Source: Herpetosiphonaceae bacterium
Lineage (GTDB): Bacteria > Chloroflexota > Chloroflexia > Chloroflexales > Herpetosiphonaceae
NCBI GenBank assembly: GCA_013538855.1
Contig: JABXJS010000087.1
Coordinates: 62,001-126,000 of the forward strand
Length of the DNA stretch: 64,000 nucleotides
Direction of reading: 5' to 3'
The position numbers and the translations under genes are program-made. This document shows, in pieces, positions 8,210 to 19,507 of this stretch (positions within the stretch are counted from its first letter, which is position 1; each line of letters begins with the position of its first letter). The notes under the pieces were generated by a model that saw only the letters and a list, made by a program, of their open reading frames with translations, did no database searches and was not told where the DNA came from.

Positions 8210-9691
8210 TCAGTGAATATGCACCACGATCAAGGTAATATCATCCTGCGGCGGCGTCTGATCAGCAAAGCTGTTGACCTGATCCAGCAGGTACTGCATT
8301 AACTGCTGTGGGGTAAGATGTCCGTAGGCGGCCAGCGTGGACTCCAGACGATCAAAGCCCCACAGCTCGCCCTGGGCATTGCGCACCTCAACGAGGCCAT
8401 CGCTGAGGATAAGCAGCCGATCATCGAACTCTAGCTGCTCGTTAATCTGTTTGTAGGTATTATTTGCCAGCGCGCCGAGCGGCAGCCCGGTCACCTCAAG
8501 GTAGCGCACGCTGCCTTTGCGCCACAAGAGCGGTGCAATCAACCCAGCGTTTGAAACCTGGAGCATCCTGGTCTCGACATCGAGCACTAGGCTGCACAGA
8601 CCAGCGTTGAGCTTGCTCTTCGAGAGTCGCGGGTACAAGATCTGATTGAGGTCACTGAGCAGGAGGCCCTGATCGAGATGAATGGCCGCAAACGTATCGA
8701 ACGTATTAACGATCAGCGCCATCAGCAGCGCCGCCGGAATGCCTTTGCCGCTCACATCGCCAACCGCCAAACTAAGATAGCGCTGTGAGCGCAGCGCATG
8801 GGCGTAGAAGTCACCGCCGACCTCGCGTGCAGGCAGCGAGATCGCCGCAAGTGTAAAGCGTGGATGGGCCGGGATCTCCTGTGGTAGTAAGTCAACCTGA
8901 ATCTGGTGGGCTACATTTAGCTCCTGGCGCATACGCTCTTGTGCCACCAGTGACGTGCGCAGCTCATGGGAGCGCCGCTCGATCTCCTGCTCTAAAAATT
9001 TTTGGTTGATCAGCAGAGGATTAAAGACCTGCTGTTTAAATACCTCGTAGGTGACAAACAGCACAGCGAACACCATGCCGAACGTCTGAATCGGCAGCTG
9101 CCAGTCAACCAAGGTTGCTAAGCTGCTTACGAACACAAGCGTTGTGCCAACGACTAAGTACCAGTTTTGCCGAAGCTGACGTTGGTAGATGAGCAGTGCG
9201 AGCGCCAACAGATCATACAAGAAGTGCACTCCGCCCAGCATCTGCCCAACCGGCTCGATCACATACGAGAGCTGCCCACCAGGCCGCAGAAACGGATCAT
9301 GAACCGCCTGGCCACTAAACAACAGCCAAATGCCTACAATCAAAAAAAGTAGGCCCAGGCCCTGAAAACCAGCAATTATGCGGCGCATATAGCGCCCCCA
9401 GCTGCTGTAGAACGCAGAAACAAACCAAAAAAGCGCCACACCAACAATGGCAAAGCCGCTGGCTGCTACCTCCAACATCAACACCGGACTACCGCCTAGC
9501 TGAGGAATGGCGACATACATGCGGGCAGCAAAGGTGCCCACCATCCAGACGAATGTACCTAAGGCGAAAGCAGCAAAGCTAAGATTTACGCGCCGACGGG
9601 CGTTAAACCACAGCACAATCATCAATGATGATAAGCTTACGACAGCCGTAAGAGCATTTGCTATTTGTGCAACCCGATAGTACAGCGGCAT
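8210..9691 (-). CDS. Membrane-bound SpoIIE/RsbU-type protein phosphatase
   Basis: 493 residues. The ATG at 9691 is chosen because AGGG stands eight bases before it; a GTG at 9724 gives eleven more residues but has no ribosome site. Residues 1-220 hold about seven hydrophobic helices (for example VVSLSSLMIVLWF, LLALALLIYQ), a 7TM sensor-like module. A short coiled coil follows (FLEQEIERRSHELRTSLVAQ). Then comes a PPM/SpoIIE phosphatase domain with metal-binding motifs PAREVGGDFYAH, AVGDVSGKGIPAALLM, LLILSDGLVEV and QDDITLIVVHIH. Such proteins dephosphorylate anti-anti-sigma factors or similar partners in response to membrane signals. No anti-sigma or STAS gene is adjacent. It is separate from, but next to, the secretion/kinase operon at 9974-19507, so a functional link is possible but unproven. 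Confidence 0.88.
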   Translation of the reverse strand: MPLYYRVAQIANALTAVVSLSSLMIVLWFNARRRVNLSFAAFALGTFVWMVGTFAARMYVAIPQLGGSPVLMLEVAASGFAIVGVALFWFVSAFYSSWGRYMRRIIAGFQGLGLLFLIVGIWLLFSGQAVHDPFLRPGGQLSYVIEPVGQMLGGVHFLYDLLALALLIYQRQLRQNWYLVVGTTLVFVSSLATLVDWQLPIQTFGMVFAVLFVTYEVFKQQVFNPLLINQKFLEQEIERRSHELRTSLVAQERMRQELNVAHQIQVDLLPQEIPAHPRFTLAAISLPAREVGGDFYAHALRSQRYLSLAVGDVSGKGIPAALLMALIVNTFDTFAAIHLDQGLLLSDLNQILYPRLSKSKLNAGLCSLVLDVETRMLQVSNAGLIAPLLWRKGSVRYLEVTGLPLGALANNTYKQINEQLEFDDRLLILSDGLVEVRNAQGELWGFDRLESTLAAYGHLTPQQLMQYLLDQVNSFADQTPPQDDITLIVVHIH

Positions 9692-9973
9692 GTGGTTTAC
9701 CCTAGCGGATAAGTAAAAAATCACTTAAAGTGTAACATAAAACTCCCTACCAAACGCACACAATAGTATGTAGCGCTAGGCCCTATAGTTTTATAATTAA
9801 GTGCCTGCCAAAACAACACAGAGTCCTATTCCTATGCATCGCTACTATGGAAACGATGGAATTACGCACGGGTTGCGAGAATTCACTCAACATCTGGACA
9901 ACCCTCGATGCAGCCTCCACACTGCATCAACAGCACGAACAATCGCAAAGAGCGCGCGCTGCCAACACATGGA

Positions 9974-11482
9974 TTACGGGACCAGCGTAGGTGGCCAAGG
10001 CGCAGCGGTAACAGGTATAGCCGTTAATGGCGGCTCCTCTACTGGCAGTGGGGTTGCTGTTGGCTCAACTGTTGGCGCTACAGCGGTTGGCTGAGCCGTA
10101 GGTACAGCTGTTGGCGATGGCTGCGGCGTTGGAACAGGTATTGATGTTGTCGGTGCAGTTGATACCGCCGTTGGTGGTACGATCCGCGTTGCCGCAACTG
10201 CGCTTGGCTGCGGCGCTCCTTCTGTCGGGCTAGGCGCAAGCGGCAGAGCTGTTGCCGACGGTGCAGGCATGCCAGGTTCAGCTTGCACCGGTGCAGTCGC
10301 TGTTGGTAGGGGCGCAACGCTGGTTGCTGTTGGCGGTGCACTAGTTGCTGGCACAGCCCTAGGCGTAGCGCTTACAAGGGGCAAAGCTGTTACAGCGGTC
10401 GGCACAGGCGGCAGAACAGGCGTAGGTGTGAGTGCAGGCATGGGCGGTAGATACACACCCGCTGACGTTGGCGGAGGATGTATCACTTTTCGCTCAGGCG
10501 TTGATGTTGGTAGCGCAGGCTGTAATGTAGCTGATGGCAACGGGGCCAGGGTGCTTGTCAATGCGAGTGCCACCTGCGCTCCTGTGCCCGCCTGGGACAA
10601 ACCATCAACTATCGCTACTTGGCGCGGCGTCTTGGCTGCCCACCAGCTAAAAGTTAGTGCAAGTATGGCGGCCATAGCGCTCAACAGCCAGCGTCGATAG
10701 CGCACAGCTTGGAGGCCGCCTGGGCGCACAATCAGCACCGAAATATTATCATGGCCACCAGCACGTTTAGCCTGGCACATCAGCGCCTTAACTGCCGTGC
10801 GTGGCTGAGCACTTCGAGCTAGCTGGGCGATGTGTGATCGAGCGACAGTATCGGTCAGGCCATCGCTGCAAAGCACCAGCACAGCATCGCGCTGTAGACG
10901 AAAAGCACACACAGATGGCTCAACAATCGCATCGCCCATCACCTGCCATAGACGGCCATCGGCAGCAACATGACGCTGTGATAGCTCGCTGGTCTGCTGC
11001 GGCTCACACAATAGCCCAACGCTATCGCCAACATTGACCAGCACACCAGCGTACTCACTCCCATCCGGGTAGAGCAGGGCCGCAACCAGTGTAGCCGCAC
11101 GATCAGAGCGATCATGGGCGGCGCGCTGGGCCATTGATCTATTTGTCTGGGACAGCGCGACCTGCAAGCGCTCGACCGGTGTATCTGCCACAATGCTCGC
11201 CGTATAGAAGGTATCGATCAAGCCCTGCACAGCTTGGTGGCTAGCTAGCGCGCCTTGGCGCTGCCCGCCAACCCCATCGGCCAGCACAAACAAGTAGCCC
11301 CAACGCTTAATCTGATCGACAGAGATAGCGCAGATCAAGCCTTGATCAAGTTGAGCATCACGCAGCCGCCAGCCAGAGTGCAGGGCAGGAAAAGCATGCA
11401 GCCAACCGATTTGGTCCTCATTATGCCTGCGCACCAAACCGCGATCAGTTGCACCAAATACGTTGAGTGGAGGGTTGCTCAT
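9974..11482 (-). CDS. PP2C Ser/Thr phosphatase with membrane anchor and extracytoplasmic Pro/Thr tail
   Basis: 502 residues from the ATG at 11482, which overlaps the kinase stop as ATGA (11479-11482) and signals coupled translation. Residues 1-245 are a PP2C catalytic domain: GATDRGLVRRHNEDQIG, VLADGVGGQRQGALAS, VNVGDSVGLL, LVLCSDGLTDTV, GGHDNISVLIV, so all metal-binding aspartates appear present. One membrane helix follows (WLLSAMAAILALTFSWWA), then about 200 residues of PTATPLP-like low-complexity sequence, probably wall-spanning outside the cell. This is the last gene of the operon. It would oppose the upstream Ser/Thr kinase, like PstP/PknB or PrpC/PrkC pairs. The tail resembles the stalk of the LPDTG protein at 2868 but has no sorting signal. 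Confidence 0.92.
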   Translation of the reverse strand: MSNPPLNVFGATDRGLVRRHNEDQIGWLHAFPALHSGWRLRDAQLDQGLICAISVDQIKRWGYLFVLADGVGGQRQGALASHQAVQGLIDTFYTASIVADTPVERLQVALSQTNRSMAQRAAHDRSDRAATLVAALLYPDGSEYAGVLVNVGDSVGLLCEPQQTSELSQRHVAADGRLWQVMGDAIVEPSVCAFRLQRDAVLVLCSDGLTDTVARSHIAQLARSAQPRTAVKALMCQAKRAGGHDNISVLIVRPGGLQAVRYRRWLLSAMAAILALTFSWWAAKTPRQVAIVDGLSQAGTGAQVALALTSTLAPLPSATLQPALPTSTPERKVIHPPPTSAGVYLPPMPALTPTPVLPPVPTAVTALPLVSATPRAVPATSAPPTATSVAPLPTATAPVQAEPGMPAPSATALPLAPSPTEGAPQPSAVAATRIVPPTAVSTAPTTSIPVPTPQPSPTAVPTAQPTAVAPTVEPTATPLPVEEPPLTAIPVTAAPWPPTLVP

Positions 11483-12672
11483 CGCTGCGTCCATTCTGCA
11501 CAAGTTTGCGCCGGAATCCACCCATGTGCGGCATCGCCTGTGCGCTCTACAGACAGCCATGCCTGCTGCTCAAACCAAACCTGATCAACGACAGTCAGTT
11601 GATCGTCAGCTCGCAGCGGAAGCCACCCTGCAGCAGCGTTCCCGCCTGGAGCTTGACGGAGGTCAGCGGCTGTGTCAGTGATCTGCGGTGTACAAGCCCG
11701 TTTAGGTACTGCTTCGCCGTAGAGACCGAGCGCAGCCAGCACAAAGCCCAACGTCAGGCTGGCCGTAATCCACCGGGCAGACTGTGAGCGCCAGGAGCGT
11801 GGCACAACGGGCAGCAAGCCTAGCCGAACACCATCGCCGGCTAAGGCTAGCCGAAGTTGTTGCGCAAATGTGCCACAGCGCTCAAAGCGTTGCTGCGGAT
11901 CGAAAGCCAGCGCACGCAACAACACAGCCTGCGTGCGCGTATGGCGCGGCAGCCGCTTTTGCACCTCCTGCACCATGAAGCGCCATGCCGCCTCGACCTG
12001 CTCTTTGCTCCCTGAATCATTGCCAAGGCCTTGATGTGCAAGTAGCGGCTGCCCGGTCAAGAATGTCCATGCGACAAGTGCCAGAGCAAACTGATCAGAT
12101 GCAGGCACTTCAGCGCTCCATAGCTGCTCAGGAGCCATATACTGCGGCGTCCCCAACACGCGATCTTCCACCAAACCAACATGCGGGCTACGCGCCACAC
12201 TCAAATCAATCAGCGTGGCATTTCCATACCGACGATCAACTAAAATATTGCCTGGTTTTACATCGCAGTGAATAATCGGATGGTTTGGATGACTCGTATG
12301 CAGGTAGTCTAATGCCGCAGCCACATGGTCAACGACCTGAATGATCAGCGTTGGGTTACGCTGGCGTAAAATTGCCCGCAACGGGAGCGCATTGACGAGG
12401 CGCGTGGCAATAAACCATGGCTCCTGCTGCATATTACGCTCAATTAACTCGCACACGTGCGGGTGTCCACCCTGAGCTTGCGCGGCGCTGAGTAAGCGCT
12501 GTTCATTAAAAAAGTACTGCCGAACTGCTAAATCAGGGTTTGTTAGCACCTTCAGAGCAACCTCCACACCTGTGTGCCGCTGGATCGCGTGGTAGACAGG
12601 CCCAGTCAATCCATGCGCTAGTCGTCTGATAATCCGGTATTTGCGCCGCAGCGCTCCATGGATACGCTCCAT
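11479..12672 (-). CDS. Membrane Ser/Thr protein kinase with outside SH3-like domain
   Basis: 397 residues. The ATG at 12672 is preceded by AGAGGAG at nine bases; a more distal start at 12714 would overlap the upstream gene. The kinase domain covers residues 10-285, with the VAIK-type lysine (EVALKVL), catalytic loop HCDVKPGNILVD and LGTPQYMAPEQL. The metal-binding DFG is DLS (LIDLSVARS), so Asp is kept. A membrane helix follows (ITASLTLGFVLAALGLYG). The extracytoplasmic end (ADLRQAPGG...GWIPAQTCAEW) looks like a bacterial SH3 domain, which suggests wall or peptide sensing. In other kinase-FHA systems the substrate is the FHA partner; here FHA proteins are encoded just upstream (13863, 18848). 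It is coupled to the PP2C gene by ATGA. Confidence 0.9.
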   Translation of the reverse strand: MERIHGALRRKYRIIRRLAHGLTGPVYHAIQRHTGVEVALKVLTNPDLAVRQYFFNEQRLLSAAQAQGGHPHVCELIERNMQQEPWFIATRLVNALPLRAILRQRNPTLIIQVVDHVAAALDYLHTSHPNHPIIHCDVKPGNILVDRRYGNATLIDLSVARSPHVGLVEDRVLGTPQYMAPEQLWSAEVPASDQFALALVAWTFLTGQPLLAHQGLGNDSGSKEQVEAAWRFMVQEVQKRLPRHTRTQAVLLRALAFDPQQRFERCGTFAQQLRLALAGDGVRLGLLPVVPRSWRSQSARWITASLTLGFVLAALGLYGEAVPKRACTPQITDTAADLRQAPGGNAAAGWLPLRADDQLTVVDQVWFEQQAWLSVERTGDAAHGWIPAQTCAEWTQR

Positions 12673-12697
12673 CGCTCTTCGCTCCTCTACTGTTAAA

Positions 12698-13861
12698 CTA
12701 CAAACGAGTTTCACTGCCTACTGATGGAATACGCTCGCCAAAGAATCGGCCAATTAGACCTGTGCCGAGCAGCGCAATAACACAGGCACAGCATGCGGCC
12801 TGCAAAAGGTAGATGCGTGCAGCGCCATTGAGCGATCGTAGTGGCACAGCCGGAATATGCAATGGGGGGATAATCACGACGCTGCTGTAGCTTGTTTGTC
12901 CCGCACGGTTGATTTGTAGCTGCACTGTATGGCGCTGGTTTGCAGTCAGAAGTGGTGGCGTATAGCGCACCCGGTAGCCAATGCGCTGCACAGGCTGGAC
13001 ATATTTGCTATAGACGGCGAGCATGTCTGCTGGTGCTGGTGCTGGTACGTACATGCCACCGCTGCGAACACTAAGCTGCCGTAGTAACTCTGAGCGCTGG
13101 TCAAGCAATACTTGTGGAGCCACGCCAAAGCTGAGCAGTTTCGTTGATGGTGGTATGTTCAGTCGAGCCAAATCGTCAGAATGCAGCCCGCCGCCATCGC
13201 TCAAAACGACAACAAAGCTGTTTGTCCCATGGGCTGTGGCGTAGCGATCCGTCTCGACGAAGGCAGTCTGAATCGCCCCTGCCAGATCAGTCGCTCCTGA
13301 TCGGGGCTGAGCTAGCTCCAGAGCATTGATCACGGCATTGCGATCGGCGCTAAATCCGGTCAGATCAGCGGGCTGTAGCGTCTCAGCTGCTCGACTAACT
13401 GGAATAAACAGCCCAATTGTCTCGTCAGTCTGATCACGACCTGCTTCAAGCCATACACGAGCAAGCTGGCGCATAGCCAGCACGTAGTCGGTTTGACCAT
13501 CGCTGCCAATGGCTGTGCTAAGATCCACAACAAGCCCAATTGTTGCCCCCCGTGACTGTAGTACACCATCGCCAAAAGGAATGCTTGGCGACACAGCTGA
13601 GGTCGCCACAGGCACTAAATCAACGACCAACTCCGGCTGAGCTTGGCCATCCTGCACGACCACAATCTGATCGGCAGTAACATCGGGTAGATCTAACCCT
13701 GTTTGAGGATCACGCACGAGCAGATCAACAATAATGTCGGTGACATTCGGCCGATCTACCCCGCGCACCTCTAGCTCTAGTGGTGCTTGCGCCTGTGCTA
13801 CGCTCAGCGCCAGGACCAGAGCCAGCATCAGCAGTAGCAGCACAATAAGCCAACGTTGCAT
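12698..13861 (-). CDS. Membrane-anchored von Willebrand factor A domain protein
   Basis: 387 residues. The ATG at 13861 starts one base after the preceding stop. A signal peptide spans residues 1-25 (LIVLLLLMLALVLALSVAQAQ). A short beta domain follows, then a vWA domain from about residue 105. Its metal site is partly conserved: DLSTA in place of DxSxS, then SGATDLAGA and VVLSDGGG. A C-terminal beta region and one helix (IYLLQAACCACVIALLGTGLIG) anchor it with most of the protein outside. vWA domains mediate metal-dependent protein contacts. The vWA/kinase/PP2C order recalls the known TerY-P triad (TerY vWA, kinase, PP2C), but this version is membrane-bound and sits next to EccC. Its partner is unknown. 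Confidence 0.85.
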   Translation of the reverse strand: MQRWLIVLLLLMLALVLALSVAQAQAPLELEVRGVDRPNVTDIIVDLLVRDPQTGLDLPDVTADQIVVVQDGQAQPELVVDLVPVATSAVSPSIPFGDGVLQSRGATIGLVVDLSTAIGSDGQTDYVLAMRQLARVWLEAGRDQTDETIGLFIPVSRAAETLQPADLTGFSADRNAVINALELAQPRSGATDLAGAIQTAFVETDRYATAHGTNSFVVVLSDGGGLHSDDLARLNIPPSTKLLSFGVAPQVLLDQRSELLRQLSVRSGGMYVPAPAPADMLAVYSKYVQPVQRIGYRVRYTPPLLTANQRHTVQLQINRAGQTSYSSVVIIPPLHIPAVPLRSLNGAARIYLLQAACCACVIALLGTGLIGRFFGERIPSVGSETRL

Positions 13862-13862
13862 C

Positions 13863-14687
13863 TTACTCTCCCTCTCGCTGATAGAGCAGCTCTATCGACT
13901 GCTCTAGGTTTGGATCTCCTAAAAATAGTCTATCGCCGCTAAATAGCTGGCACGGCTGCACACCGATTTCAAGTGTTTGCCCCTGCCGGCACAGATAGGT
14001 ACCGTTGCTGCTGCCAAGATCGTGTGCGTAGACGAGATTTCGCTGCACATCAAGGTGCACATGAGACCGCGATACACCAGCATCATTCAGCTGAATGCTG
14101 CCCTTAGAGCCGATCACCGTATTCGGACGTACAGCCTCGATAACGCCCTGACGTTGTCCACGGATGATGGTTAATGTGCCAAATGGCGCGAGCCGTGGAA
14201 CAGCGCCCGACCGCCGCCCAAACGTCTGCGTTACCAGGGCCGTCATCGCCCGCGAGACCTTGTTGACAATCGGCTGTCGCCACTCCGGCCTCTGTAGCAG
14301 CGTGCCAGCCAGGAGCATTGGCATACTCAGAAACGCTCCGGTCAAGCCCCATGTGCTGATCAAGTTAAGCGCCGCCCCAAGCTCACGCAGCGTCTCAAAG
14401 GCCAGCATTTGCGGCTGTTCAGGCAAGATAAGGCCAAGTCGCCGCGCCACCGTCGCCAACGATAGACGAGCAACGAGTGACGGGAGGATCAACAGCGGCG
14501 GCACACATATCAGCAGCATCCATAGCAGCCGACCAGCACTGGTGTGGATCTGGCGCGCTACGATAAGCCCCACCAGTGGCAGCAGCAGAACCACACAGCT
14601 CACTGGTAGCGCTAAGGTGCTAAACCACCATGCCGCATGCAAAAGCTTTTGCTGCTGCAGCGCCTGCCAAAATGCAGCATCATGCAT
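13863..14687 (-). CDS. FHA-domain membrane protein
   Basis: 274 residues. The ATG at 14687 has GGAGG six bases upstream and overlaps the end of the ATPase gene by eight bases. Two hydrophobic helices lie near residues 22-75 (LALPVSCVVLLLPLVGLIV, LLWMLLICVPPLLILPSL), and weaker hydrophobic stretches continue to about residue 135. The C-terminal 90 residues are a canonical FHA domain: TVIGSKGSIQLND, VSRSHVHLD, DLGSSNGTYL and SGDRLFLGD contain the Ser/His/Asn residues that grip phosphothreonine. It probably couples kinase output to the EccC motor. In Firmicutes EssC the FHA domains are fused to the ATPase; here they are encoded separately. Confidence 0.9.
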   Translation of the reverse strand: MHDAAFWQALQQQKLLHAAWWFSTLALPVSCVVLLLPLVGLIVARQIHTSAGRLLWMLLICVPPLLILPSLVARLSLATVARRLGLILPEQPQMLAFETLRELGAALNLISTWGLTGAFLSMPMLLAGTLLQRPEWRQPIVNKVSRAMTALVTQTFGRRSGAVPRLAPFGTLTIIRGQRQGVIEAVRPNTVIGSKGSIQLNDAGVSRSHVHLDVQRNLVYAHDLGSSNGTYLCRQGQTLEIGVQPCQLFSGDRLFLGDPNLEQSIELLYQREGE

Positions 14688-17600
14688 GCTCAACCTCCTC
14701 TCTATCTTCGAGTATCGGTTCACAGCCGATCACGGACTGGGCCGCGCTGGCTTGAATCTGAAGCACCCAATTGCGCGGTAAATGCCAAACCTGTACCAGC
14801 TGCTCTGAGCCATGATTAATCCAGAATCCTCGTCCTGGCGTAGCAGCTACACTAGTTGGCCAACGCAAAGACTTCGTTCCCAACCCCAGCTGGCTAGCGT
14901 TGACATCTTGCTGGCCAAGCACTACCACATTGCGCTCATGCTTAATCATCTTGATCATAGGGTTACTCCCAACAGCGCTAAAGTCAGTGCTAGAGACCAG
15001 CACATGAAACCCCAGCCGCCGCCCCTGCACCACCCAGCGTGATAACCGTCCAAGCTGCGTTAGCTCACTCGTCTCAAGCAAGTCGATGTTGCAGATGGCT
15101 AGCACAATTCGGTATGGCGGCGCAACACCGGCTAGCTCAGCCTGCTTTAGCTCTAACAACTCAGCCTCTAGCTGCTCCAGAACAGCTGGACAAAACATCT
15201 CCGCCGTTGCGTCATCTGCTGCACCAATGCCAGACATTGTGATGTATGCCTGCGTGTGCGGAAGCTTGGCAAATGGCCGTAGCACAGAAGCACGATAGTC
15301 AAACAAGTACAGCCGCAGCTCACTAGGCGCACTTCGTGCAGTAACTCCTGCCAGCATAGCGGTCATAAGGGCGCTCTTCCCTGTGCTTGGTCCACCACAG
15401 ATCAGCCAGTGCGGTGATTTGGTCAGATCAAACACGACCGGCTGGAGTGATCGATGCTCGGTGGCCAGCGCAAACCTATGTGGCTGCAGATAGCTCGCCA
15501 GCCACTGCTGCCAGTCGATGTCAATGACATTCGCTAGGAGCCGCAGCGGGCGAGCTGTCGCTGGTGCACCTGCCCACCGCTGTTGAATCCGCTGAATGGC
15601 ATTTGGCAGCTCGACCTCTAGCCAACGCAGCGAACTTAGATCGCTGCGCAGCGCCGTATCGCTGTCGCCAGCCGTACCACGAATCTCGCTACGTGAGCGC
15701 AGTGTGGGATAGGCGATTTGGATCTCCAGTGGTCGCCCAGGACTAGGCCAAAATCCTCGACCAAGTTGATCGGCACGAATTCGCGCTGCAAAAGGCTTGT
15801 TGAGTAGCTCAAGCGAGTCATTCTCGCTCATCACACGCAGAACAATTTTTTGTCCAAGCCGATTGCGCAAATCGGCAGGAAATACACTTGATGCCATTCG
15901 ATCAGCGGTCAGAATCCAGTAGATCCCATAGGCCCGGCCGTTGCGCAGCAGACGGCTGATGCTGGGCAGCAGACTGGTATTTTGCTCGACGAACTCCACA
16001 AATGTATCAATAAACACAACGATAGCCGGCAGCGGGCTTGCGCTAGCTTGTGGATACTCGCGCCAATCTTCGATACCATACTGTGCAAAAATCTCCTGAC
16101 GCAGCTGGATAGTTTGCTCCAGCTCGGTCAGTAGACGCTCGATTCGCTGCTGATCGCTACACGCTAGCGCCTCGCACAGATGCGGCAGTGCACCTGTCGC
16201 TTGCTGTGTGGCAAAGCCTAATCCATCACCTAAAGCATCAATAAGCCAGAGGTGACAGTGTTGGGGGCTGTACCTCCACGCTAGGGCAAGAATACTCGTG
16301 CGCATAAACGAGGTTTTGCCAACACCGCCGCCGCCGACCACCAGGACACTCCCACAGGTGGCCAAATCAAGCAGGAGTGGCTGCTGCTGTGCGCGCTCAG
16401 GCTGATCGATCAAGCCGATATGGAGCTGAAGGCCCGCTGGCTGATCGATATCGTTGCTGAGCACATCGCTCAACAGCAGATCAGCGCTGAGCGGCTCTTG
16501 CCAGATCCGGTAGCGCTCGGCAGCGTAGCCTGGCAGCGTAGACGCCATCTGCTCCTGCAAGAGATCTGCGTCGCTGCGCTGTACCGTATCACGAGCCTGC
16601 GGCCGAATCGAACTCAGTCGACGCTGCCGCTGCCGTGGGGAGATCGTTCGACCGAGCGCATCAAAAAGCAAGAATGGATCGTCGATACGCTCGCTGGTTG
16701 GACGATACGCCATGGTCGCGAGCGCGGACTGGAATGCTACTACAGTATTGTTCACACGCTTGTAGGCCCGTCCAGGTGTAGCATTCGAGATCAGTGCTGC
16801 ATCGCGGCTGCCAATCATCAGCTTGCTGTCTTCAGGATCAACGACGCGTAGTGCAATCCAGTAGCTTAGGTTTGTTTTTAGCCCAGCCTTAATCGCCCCG
16901 TTAGAGGGCGTCTGCGTTGCGAACAGTAGGTGGACGCCCAGACTGCGCCCTTGTTTAGCAACCCGAATTAGCTCCTCGATAAACTCGGGGTAGTCGCGTG
17001 CCATCTCATCAAACTCATCAATGGCGATCAGCAAGTTTGGGAGTGGGGCAGGCGTGGGCTTGAGCCGTCGATAGCGCTTGATATTGGGCACACCACACTG
17101 ACTCAACTGCTGCTTGCGCCGATCTAGCTCGCTGTTAATCGCAATGAGTGCTCGCTCTGCTAAGCTGCCTGTTAGATCTGTAACTAGCCCAGCCGTATGT
17201 GGCAGTGACTGCAGATCACGAAATGTCGCCCCACCTTTAAAGTCGATCAGAAGAAAGTTCAGTCGATCAGGATGGTGTCGAACTGCTAGGGCTAGCAGCA
17301 GCGTTGTTAGCAGTTCGCTCTTACCCGATCCTGTCGTGCCCGCAATCATGCCATGAACGCCCTCGCGTTTTTCATTCAGGTCAAGCCATACGATGGCGTC
17401 GGGCTGCATCCCATAGCGGCCGATTGGCACTGGAAATAGGCCCGATGGATGCTCATCATCGGTCGGTGGTAGCTCGCGCCAGCGCACCCACGGATCAAAC
17501 GTTTGCGCATCATCAATCCCAAGCAGCTCTAGCAGGTTAACAACAGCTGGCAGATCGCGGCCATTCCGCCCCAGTGCGAGCGAGCGCCGTCCAAGTATCT

Positions 17601-18822
17601 CGGCAAGCAGCATGGGATTGGTCGGCAGCGCTGTGTCCACATGGAGCAGGGTACGACCACCGGCAGGGCCGCTTTGGGCACAAACTGCGGGATGCACAGT
17701 CAGATCAATGTAGGCGGCGCAGTGCTCTGGTACTGCAGCAACCGCTGGACTAACACAGATGAGACTTGCCTTGAGCGCCGCACCGCGCTGCATAATGGTC
17801 TGCATGAGCAGGCTGAACATAGGCGCTGGCGTTGGATCAGCAATGCAGATAACCAAGTGCTCAATGGCGGATTCTGGCTGAGTTTGACGATCACGCAGCA
17901 GCCGTTCAAGGTGCCTGATCAGCTGAAGCGTGTGCTTGGCGTACTCGTTTGGGCCATCCAAAGGTATGTCGCTGTACGCGAGCAGCCGCGACGATGCGTC
18001 GCCAATTAACGAGCGCGTGTGGGGCAAGAAGCGCAGCCAATCCCAGTGTGCTGTCTGATCCAATGGCCAAAAACCAACAATCCGCACATCATCTGGGCTG
18101 TGATGTGTGACAATATGCCAAATGAGTGCATGCAGCAGCGTGACTGTAGCACCTAGATCACCAACGACGCCAAGTGCTCCTGCGCGACGCAGATCAAAAA
18201 TAAACGGGACCCCTTTGATCGTTCGGTAGCGGCGTACTAGCTTGTGGAGTTGTTGTGAGTAGCGCGAGGTATACTCCGTGCGCGGCAACTTGATCATTGT
18301 GGTGCTAGGATACTCGCTCTGTCCTAGGCGCAGAGCGAGAAAGTCGGCATCTTGGGTGCGCCGCTCCCACAAGCGTGCGTCACTCGTCTTGATCAACTGT
18401 TCCAGCTCCAGCGGGGGCGGATCGTTGACACAGCGCACATTGAACTGTTCTTGCCACAGCAGCTGGAGCTGCTGGTCACACTCGTTGAGCGCGATATTCC
18501 AAGCTGCCAGTGCTGCTGCTTTCGCCCGCCGATAGCTGCGCCGCTGACTGATGATGGTGTAGAGATTTGTTCCTATGCTCACACTGGCCATGCCGATCAT
18601 TGGCACCACCAGTAGCCATCCGCCACCGCGACCACCGCGCAGCCAAGCCATCAGCCCATAGACGAGCAGCATCAACAGCGGCGTTAGCAGCATGCTCCAA
18701 CGCTGCGTCGGTGGTGCTGGCAGCTGTGGCGGTGCTGGCAGTTCGATCTCTGACTGTGGTAGCTTCAGTAGAATTCGTGGCGGACGATCAACTCGCACCA
18801 CCTGAGATGTTGTACGCTCCAT
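14680..18822 (-). CDS. eccC: EccC/EssC-type triple-ATPase of a type VII secretion-like system
   Basis: 1380 residues. The ATG at 18822 follows GAGAGAGG. Two membrane helices lie near residues 43-90. The EccC-specific linker LWERRTQDADFLALRLG and FDLRRAGALGVVGD follow, then three FtsK/SpoIIIE-type ATPase domains. ATPase 1 (Walker A GTTGSGKSELL near residue 494) has a full Walker B, LLIAIDEFDE. ATPase 2 (GGGGVGKTSF near 832) has VVFIDTFVEF, where Glu is Thr. ATPase 3 (GGPSTGKSAL near 1144) has VLAICNIDLLE. A catalytic first domain with weaker C-terminal domains is the known EccC arrangement, where the last domain binds the substrate tail. The family exports WXG100-type helical pairs. No WXG100, EccB, EccE or mycosin gene is visible nearby, so the substrate and pore are elsewhere or different. 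Confidence 0.92.
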   Translation of the reverse strand: MERTTSQVVRVDRPPRILLKLPQSEIELPAPPQLPAPPTQRWSMLLTPLLMLLVYGLMAWLRGGRGGGWLLVVPMIGMASVSIGTNLYTIISQRRSYRRAKAAALAAWNIALNECDQQLQLLWQEQFNVRCVNDPPPLELEQLIKTSDARLWERRTQDADFLALRLGQSEYPSTTMIKLPRTEYTSRYSQQLHKLVRRYRTIKGVPFIFDLRRAGALGVVGDLGATVTLLHALIWHIVTHHSPDDVRIVGFWPLDQTAHWDWLRFLPHTRSLIGDASSRLLAYSDIPLDGPNEYAKHTLQLIRHLERLLRDRQTQPESAIEHLVICIADPTPAPMFSLLMQTIMQRGAALKASLICVSPAVAAVPEHCAAYIDLTVHPAVCAQSGPAGGRTLLHVDTALPTNPMLLAEILGRRSLALGRNGRDLPAVVNLLELLGIDDAQTFDPWVRWRELPPTDDEHPSGLFPVPIGRYGMQPDAIVWLDLNEKREGVHGMIAGTTGSGKSELLTTLLLALAVRHHPDRLNFLLIDFKGGATFRDLQSLPHTAGLVTDLTGSLAERALIAINSELDRRKQQLSQCGVPNIKRYRRLKPTPAPLPNLLIAIDEFDEMARDYPEFIEELIRVAKQGRSLGVHLLFATQTPSNGAIKAGLKTNLSYWIALRVVDPEDSKLMIGSRDAALISNATPGRAYKRVNNTVVAFQSALATMAYRPTSERIDDPFLLFDALGRTISPRQRQRRLSSIRPQARDTVQRSDADLLQEQMASTLPGYAAERYRIWQEPLSADLLLSDVLSNDIDQPAGLQLHIGLIDQPERAQQQPLLLDLATCGSVLVVGGGGVGKTSFMRTSILALAWRYSPQHCHLWLIDALGDGLGFATQQATGALPHLCEALACSDQQRIERLLTELEQTIQLRQEIFAQYGIEDWREYPQASASPLPAIVVFIDTFVEFVEQNTSLLPSISRLLRNGRAYGIYWILTADRMASSVFPADLRNRLGQKIVLRVMSENDSLELLNKPFAARIRADQLGRGFWPSPGRPLEIQIAYPTLRSRSEIRGTAGDSDTALRSDLSSLRWLEVELPNAIQRIQQRWAGAPATARPLRLLANVIDIDWQQWLASYLQPHRFALATEHRSLQPVVFDLTKSPHWLICGGPSTGKSALMTAMLAGVTARSAPSELRLYLFDYRASVLRPFAKLPHTQAYITMSGIGAADDATAEMFCPAVLEQLEAELLELKQAELAGVAPPYRIVLAICNIDLLETSELTQLGRLSRWVVQGRRLGFHVLVSSTDFSAVGSNPMIKMIKHERNVVVLGQQDVNASQLGLGTKSLRWPTSVAATPGRGFWINHGSEQLVQVWHLPRNWVLQIQASAAQSVIGCEPILEDREEVEHA

Positions 18823-18847
18823 CCAATCCTCTCTCGTGTCGCTGAAT

Positions 18848-19507
18848 TCAGCTAACCGTCAGCTGTATGGCAATACGAACACCGCGGCGACCAAGCCGTA
18901 GCTCGCTGTTGTGCATTGATAGCTCGACAACATGGCCAGCCGCGTAGACGCTTCCATTGAGCCACACACGTTGCTTGACATGCAACACCCAGCGTTGGGT
19001 TGCTCGATCTATGGCGATGCGACAGTGTTCCTGCCGAGAGACATAGGTGAGTGGGGTATCAAGCCCCAGTGTTGAGCGCACATTCCATAGCCGCCGCTTG
19101 TATGGGCTGAGCTGCCGCTCGATCCAGCTGCGGTCAATGCTTAATCCACTACGCTCAACATCTATCGGTGCCGCTTGAAATAGCGTTAGACGACAGCGCA
19201 GGTTGGTGCTTGAGCTGCTTGGTGCTAGCCCGAACGGCTGCAGCGTTGGCTCAACCGCTGCGCCTGGCGGCGGCTGCGAACGGAGGTGCAGCAGCGTCCC
19301 TGGCGGTAGGTCCACCTCACCAAGCAGCGCCGTCGGCTCAAGCGTATGCCACACCCCATCCGCAAACCAGCCGACGCTGTAGCACAGCGCTGCATCTGAC
19401 TGCACTGAGCGTACATAGGCGTGCGACCACTCCGCTACCGACTTCCATAGCGGCACAACGAGCGTATCTGTCTGACCTTTCCAGCTCACATGCACCAGCG
19501 TCTGCAC
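18848..19507 (-). CDS. EccD/YukD-like ubiquitin-fold protein with C-terminal FHA-like domain
   Basis: 219 residues if started at the GTG at 19507, which has AGAAGGGGG six bases upstream; an ATG at 19531 is an alternative without a good ribosome site. Residues 1-95 (QTLVHVSWKGQTDTLVVPL ... DLPPGTLLHLR) resemble the beta-grasp domain at the amino end of EccD and in YukD. Residues 150-219 look like a degenerate FHA fold (YVSRQEHCRIAID, WVLHVKQRVWLNG, ELRLGRRG). The protein is soluble: no membrane segment, unlike EccD. It is the first gene of the operon, 25 bases before eccC. The assignment to the type VII family is by pattern and context and is moderately sure. Confidence 0.65.
   Translation of the reverse strand: MQTLVHVSWKGQTDTLVVPLWKSVAEWSHAYVRSVQSDAALCYSVGWFADGVWHTLEPTALLGEVDLPPGTLLHLRSQPPPGAAVEPTLQPFGLAPSSSSTNLRCRLTLFQAAPIDVERSGLSIDRSWIERQLSPYKRRLWNVRSTLGLDTPLTYVSRQEHCRIAIDRATQRWVLHVKQRVWLNGSVYAAGHVVELSMHNSELRLGRRGVRIAIQLTVS

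Follow-up and report, generated by a model that had tools for sequence, protein, structure and literature searches.

A type VII secretion-like operon in Chloroflexales that may be gated by threonine phosphorylation

Most descriptions of type VII secretion systems (T7SS) come from Actinomycetota and Bacillota (PMC11217815). Chloroflexota are not mentioned in the text of that study, a review reports a smaller number of WXG100 sequences from this phylum (PMC10765036), and the literature collection searched yielded nothing on T7SS in Herpetosiphon. The window, i.e., the whole stretch of 64,000 nucleotides that was analysed, from a Herpetosiphonaceae bacterium (filamentous, green non-sulfur), contains a six-gene operon in which a type VII secretion-like motor is joined by a Ser/Thr kinase, a phosphatase, FHA domains and a vWA protein. 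Is this an export system, and could export be switched by phosphorylation, as a preliminary description of the locus had proposed? We suggest, with a probability of roughly 0.6, that the operon is one of three EccC systems in its genome and represents a Chloroflexales-specific T7SS subtype, gated by threonine phosphorylation in a T6SS-like manner. What the sequences show directly is the gene content, the conservation of the gene order, the intact catalytic residues, the topology from hydropathy, the co-occurrence across genomes and a gene fusion found elsewhere.

The operon at 9974-19507 lies on the minus strand and all six reading frames are intact, see Table 1. The overlaps and gaps given in the preliminary description are confirmed on the sequence: genes 2 and 3 share 8 bases (14680-14687), genes 3 and 4 are separated by a single base, and genes 5 and 6 are joined through ATGA (11479-11482). 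Genes 4 and 5 overlap by 17 bases. Profile matches (Pfam, NCBIfam) bear out the identities proposed for the ATPase, FHA, vWA, kinase and PP2C proteins, with three FtsK_SpoIIIE domains as well as EssC/EccC models for gene 2 and E-values of 4.8e-10 for FHA (PF00498), 2e-5 for VWA_2 (PF13519), 9.5e-28 for Pkinase (PF00069) and 4.7e-9 for PP2C_2 (PF13672). Matches in a promoter and terminator scan were no more numerous than in shuffles. A SpoIIE-type membrane phosphatase (8210-9724, minus strand) was rejected as a seventh gene, as it lies 250 bases downstream of the operon and no counterpart was found next to the module in the relatives. Elsewhere, one SpoIIE-like match occurs near an EccC of type B, defined below (L110).

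Table 1. Genes of the operon and their positions in the window.
Gene	Coordinates	Strand	Product	Basis
1	18848-19507	minus	219 aa; predicted ubiquitin fold and FHA fold; longest ORF reaches 19657	
2	14680-18822	minus	Motor ATPase of the EccC/EssC type, 1380 aa; TM helices at the N-terminus and three FtsK-like domains, FHA absent	
3	13863-14687	minus	FHA membrane protein	PF00498, alignment of 11 orthologues, hydropathy
4	12698-13861	minus	Signal peptide, outside vWA and C-terminal TM helix, followed by a short tail in the cytosol with Thr-Arg-Leu at its end	PF13519, 12-sequence alignment, hydropathy
5	11479-12714	minus	Membrane Ser/Thr kinase with the kinase domain in the cytosol, a single TM and an SH3-like end outside; exact N-terminal start uncertain	PF00069, model
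6	9974-11482	minus	PP2C phosphatase with a single TM and a Pro/Thr-rich tail on the outside	PF13672

To judge from its sequence, the product of gene 2 is a true EccC/EssC protein. It scores 620 bits with TIGR03928, 481 with TIGR03924 and 336 with TIGR03925, each below the model's own equivalog cut-off; it matches EccC in PDB 4nh0 at 7e-91, and its best solved relatives are EccC and YukB. The Walker motifs are invariant. A membrane ATPase of the EccC/EssC type, the broad mark of type VII secretion, is thereby present; a TM helix lies at residue 43 and no FHA domain was matched in the protein, so the N-terminal FHA that marks the T7SSb type is not seen. In a tree of 43 sequences the window EccC falls in a clade of ten rows, type A (SH-aLRT 100), which adjoins a second lineage, type B (joint branch 99), and stands apart from FtsK, Actinomycetota EccC (T7SSa), Bacillota EssC and the Anaerolineae groups. 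Rooting of the tree is limited by the quick method used, by the great length of the FtsK branch and by uneven composition; the tree contained no T7SSc ATPase, as none was recognised in plasmids or in one scan of genome contigs. The preliminary description had named grouping with FtsK/TraB proteins as the result that would overturn its reading. A DNA translocase of that kind, which would share the FtsK_SpoIIIE domain, is ruled out here as the origin of the motor, as far as sequence can tell, by the tree and by the EssC/EccC profile scores, which cover the full length; together with the solved relatives this leaves that explanation practically no weight.

Gene 1, for which Pfam gives no match, is found upstream of EccC in the relatives as well. 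In an AlphaFold model based on ten orthologues (pLDDT 84.8), residues 1-79 match ubiquitin folds with Z up to 12.3, while residues 102-219 match the FHA domains of Chk2 (Z 11.2) and Rv1747 (Z 10.8). The earlier label of a ubiquitin-fold/FHA-like protein agrees with both predicted folds, and gene 1 is, according to the model, a ubiquitin-fold part resembling EsaB/YukD fused to an FHA-fold part. The Foldseek list also includes the EccD chain of the ESX-5 pore (7b9f_X, E 2e-3); however, ubiquitin folds generally match gene 1 equally, so this match shows fold and not descent.

The 6.3 Mb source genome has three EccC genes, the one in the window and those on contigs C79 (46% identity) and C264 (35%). 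No WXG100 gene was found between window genes 1 and 2, where the gap is only 25 bases. On C79, two WXG100 genes lie directly upstream of EccC, preceded by a gene 1 homologue, and a long WXG100 protein is also encoded. The absence of WXG100 noted earlier therefore holds for the window but not for the genome or the relatives, whose loci carry such genes. Another WXG100 pair, on contig C30 (L015:3776-4521), resembles the C79 pair; no EccC was found in the 16 kb read there, and the neighbours include a Tad-like type II/IV secretion ATPase. T7SSg/h have been reported beside Tad loci (PMC11217815). A separate locus (L016:89-5593) encodes a long protein with a WXG100-like start, below the cut-off, beside two kinase genes, one of them with TSP3 repeats.

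Contig C79 (L013) stops inside its FHA membrane gene, and contig C82 (L092) starts with the remaining FHA part followed by vWA, kinase and PP2C. At each of the two ends CAGTAGATCACAGGA is found next to a repeated ATGAT, the two copies facing opposite ways, which suggests, from the contig ends alone, that the FHA gene of this second copy may be split by a mobile element with inverted ends. One could read the window copy as a decaying or repurposed paralogue and the C79/C82 copy as the working system: the window operon is without WXG100, and its branch is slightly longer than that of its own C79 copy. However, the six frames are intact, the Walker motifs and catalytic residues are kept, and the split gene belongs to the C79/C82 copy, and we consider decay or repurposing of the window copy very unlikely.

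The arrangement was followed through 82 genomes of Chloroflexales (named records include Chloroploca, Oscillochloris and Chloroflexus). Gene maps show the FHA membrane protein, vWA, kinase and PP2C genes collinear in about 20 loci, and the order Ub-FHA, WXG100, EccC, FHA membrane protein, vWA, kinase, PP2C is found in all four families of the order. Type A loci consist of gene 1, one or two WXG100 genes, EccC, sometimes long WXG100 proteins and then the FHA-vWA-kinase-PP2C module; only the window and G042, which is frameshifted, have no WXG100 between gene 1 and EccC. Since the operon is conserved over the order, a chance arrangement is ruled out. The conservation of the six-gene order that the preliminary description asked for was thus found, and the linkage between eccC and the kinase gene, whose rarity would have spoken against it, holds across Chloroflexales.

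Is the module a part of the export system or only its neighbour? The four genes could form a general envelope-stress signalling unit that is merely co-expressed with the motor and acts mainly on other targets. In G043 the module lies about 0.5 Mb from EccC, and in the relatives whose genomes we take to be of Herpetosiphon type, as well as in G053, it also stands apart, with EccC still present in all of them. Of 400 Chloroflexota genomes, 20 match a vWA profile (E 1e-30), and 19 of these belong to Chloroflexales; the twentieth, a distant one (G102, L219:1-10808), encodes a related cassette in which a vWA-FHA fusion, PP2C, three FHA proteins and three kinases stand side by side. No EccC was found in G102, so the cassette is not tied to T7SS everywhere. 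Against a general stress unit, EccC (E 1e-50; 51 of the 82 genomes) is present in every Chloroflexales genome with the module, 22 of 22 versus 29 of the 60 without it (Fisher p 3e-6, kinship ignored), and linkage of the module extends to two EccC lineages, with gene orders that differ, as in G056, where it stands upstream of a type B EccC. We therefore hold the stress unit to be unlikely, and favour a module that serves the motor.

The residues on which a phosphorylation switch would depend are largely kept. Lys55, Asp151, Asn156 and Asp170 of the kinase are invariant in 16 orthologues, and so are the metal-site/catalytic aspartates of the phosphatase in 13; hydropathy gives each protein one TM helix. 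Pfam finds no SH3 match on the window kinase, whereas SH3_3 is significant (8.6e-8) on the outside part of an orthologue. PASTA domains (E-values 1.5e-15, 7.6e-11 and 1.4e-7) occur in three relatives (L086:4798-6567, L087:14655-16406 and L089:1-1596), on the PP2C and not on the kinase; the window phosphatase has only its Pro/Thr tail. Wall sensing is supported by these domains of the relatives, PASTA being carried by the phosphatase and SH3 by the kinase. In the FHA domain of gene 3, the Ser and Asn positions are invariant in 11 orthologues. Two features weaken the reading as a switch, however: the basic residue of gene 3 that would normally contact phosphothreonine (Lys/Arg in 8 of the 11) is Ser in the window copy, and the FHA of gene 1 is without one conserved Asn in the alignment. 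Conservation of the kinase, the phosphatase and most of the positions that read phosphothreonine, together with outside domains of a wall-binding type in relatives, makes a phosphorylation switch of export plausible at the level of sequence.

The vWA protein may link the outside to the reader. From hydropathy, gene 4 has a signal peptide and a TM helix that place the vWA domain outside, and the Thr third from the end of its tail recurs in 14 of 17 loci, with Arg or Lys after it in nearly every case; these loci are related to each other. In four loci (L095, L104, L119, L122), all of them EccC loci, genes adjoining kinase and PP2C encode fused proteins of 611-618 aa with a signal peptide, vWA, one TM helix and a C-terminal FHA domain; only L095 has a strong VWA score (3.2e-12), the remaining three scores being weak. 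Such a fusion, whose vWA lies outside and whose FHA lies inside, connects genes 3 and 4.

Which proteins would form the channel? EccB gave no match over the cut-off in six genomes, although no control genome passed it either, and EssB/YukC gave none in the same six, where 1 of 14 control genomes passed. The earlier proposal that the channel may be new stands solely in so far as EccB and EssB were not found in these six genomes. This absence would also fit a structural role, in which EccB/EccE or EssB/EsaA would be replaced by the membrane proteins with FHA, vWA and kinase domains, the kinase acting as a scaffold; EssB is a pseudokinase with a topology like that of the window kinase, and the FHA domains of EssC bind it (PMC11217815). 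However, a scaffold would not be expected to keep the invariant catalytic residues of kinase and phosphatase, and type B loci are mostly without the four separate genes, which makes purely structural stand-ins distinctly unlikely. A bolder form of our own proposal, possible although doubtful, is a distinct T7SS subtype in which EccC would be gated by an outside-vWA/inside-FHA receptor, a kinase that senses the wall and a phosphatase of the PASTA type, and the FHA and vWA proteins, not EccB/EccE or EssB/EsaA, would form part of the channel.

The closest known system is T7SSc of Bacillota (TscA-TscG), which has EccC, kinase, vWA, PPM phosphatase, a ubiquitin-like protein and WXG100; for TscG, which is EspG-like, no sequence model exists (PMC11217815). 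Shared with it are an EccC-like ATPase without FHA, a membrane kinase with an intact active site, vWA, a PPM phosphatase, the lack of EssB, a ubiquitin-like part and WXG100, here in relatives. Since EccC, kinase, vWA and PPM phosphatase are found together in T7SSc, the Chloroflexales system is a variant and its overall type is already known. It differs from T7SSc in several respects. The window vWA faces outside through its signal peptide and TM helix while TscE is cytosolic, the phosphatase is membrane-anchored with an outside tail while TscF is cytosolic, the ubiquitin part is fused to FHA while TscB stands alone, and there is an extra membrane FHA protein, in another phylum. The arrangement looks like a previously undescribed variant of T7SS, set apart from T7SSc by description, with no T7SSc sequence in the tree. 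T7SSe and T7SSj share a kinase-type component, a PPM phosphatase, a separate FHA protein and WXG100, whereas their ATPases bear N-terminal FHA domains and no vWA component is reported in the parts of the source cited here (PMC11217815). From gene neighbourhoods, phosphorylation control was suggested for some T7SS subtypes, with T6SS as the parallel (PMC11217815).

Secretion by T6SS is under the control of PpkA-dependent Thr phosphorylation, which FHA reads (PMC3953482), and the vWA of PpkA is extracellular (PMC3224232). The likeness to the PpkA/PppA/Fha pathway lies in membrane kinase, PP2C, FHA reader and outside vWA (PMC3953482, PMC3224232) and is one of logic, not membership; by this likeness, all four occur here in one locus with a secretion ATPase. 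T6SS is however a contractile machine, and its vWA and kinase are one protein. Kinase-PP2C-vWA triads are also known from conflict systems, where the three genes lie together, the vWA stands alone and no secretion motor is mentioned in the portions of PMC7159879 drawn on here.

TerY-P triads bring together vWA, kinase and PP2C. The preliminary description compared the locus with them, but T7SSc (PMC11217815) and the PpkA/PppA/Fha pathway of T6SS offer the stronger comparison.

From these observations we infer the phosphorylation targets, gating, signal and substrate of the system. The core would be the EccC motor, the ubiquitin-FHA fusion and WXG100 partners, which for the window may be supplied from elsewhere in the genome, perhaps by the motor-less C30 pair. 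The vWA protein, which faces outward, would form a sensor-reader pair with the FHA membrane protein. The membrane kinase, perhaps sensing the cell wall via its SH3-like end, would phosphorylate threonines on system components, the Thr of the vWA tail being a candidate. Once bound to the phosphothreonine, FHA domains could assemble the export complex or open it, and PP2C would reset the switch. Sensor, kinase, phosphatase and two readers share one operon with the motor, are kept over the order and include a sensor-reader fusion elsewhere; with such an operon-wide set, phosphorylation control of T7SS becomes directly testable in cultured relatives. The control logic of the T6SS threonine pathway would then recur on an unrelated export machine.

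Chloroflexota-like EccC loci were also seen on contigs labelled Arenicella, Pleurocapsa and Bacteroidetes (L113, L148, L142), which are possibly mis-binned. Giant EccC proteins of ~2,950 aa with seven P-loops, i.e., three tandem NBD1-NBD2 pairs and a last domain, are encoded in the Herpetosiphon-type genomes (L213:8356-17232, L215:6932-15772, L218:9169-18042). Four NTPase domains are described for EccC/EssC proteins in PMC11217815. Giant-EccC ORFs of 2,874-3,289 aa occur in about nine other Chloroflexales genomes.
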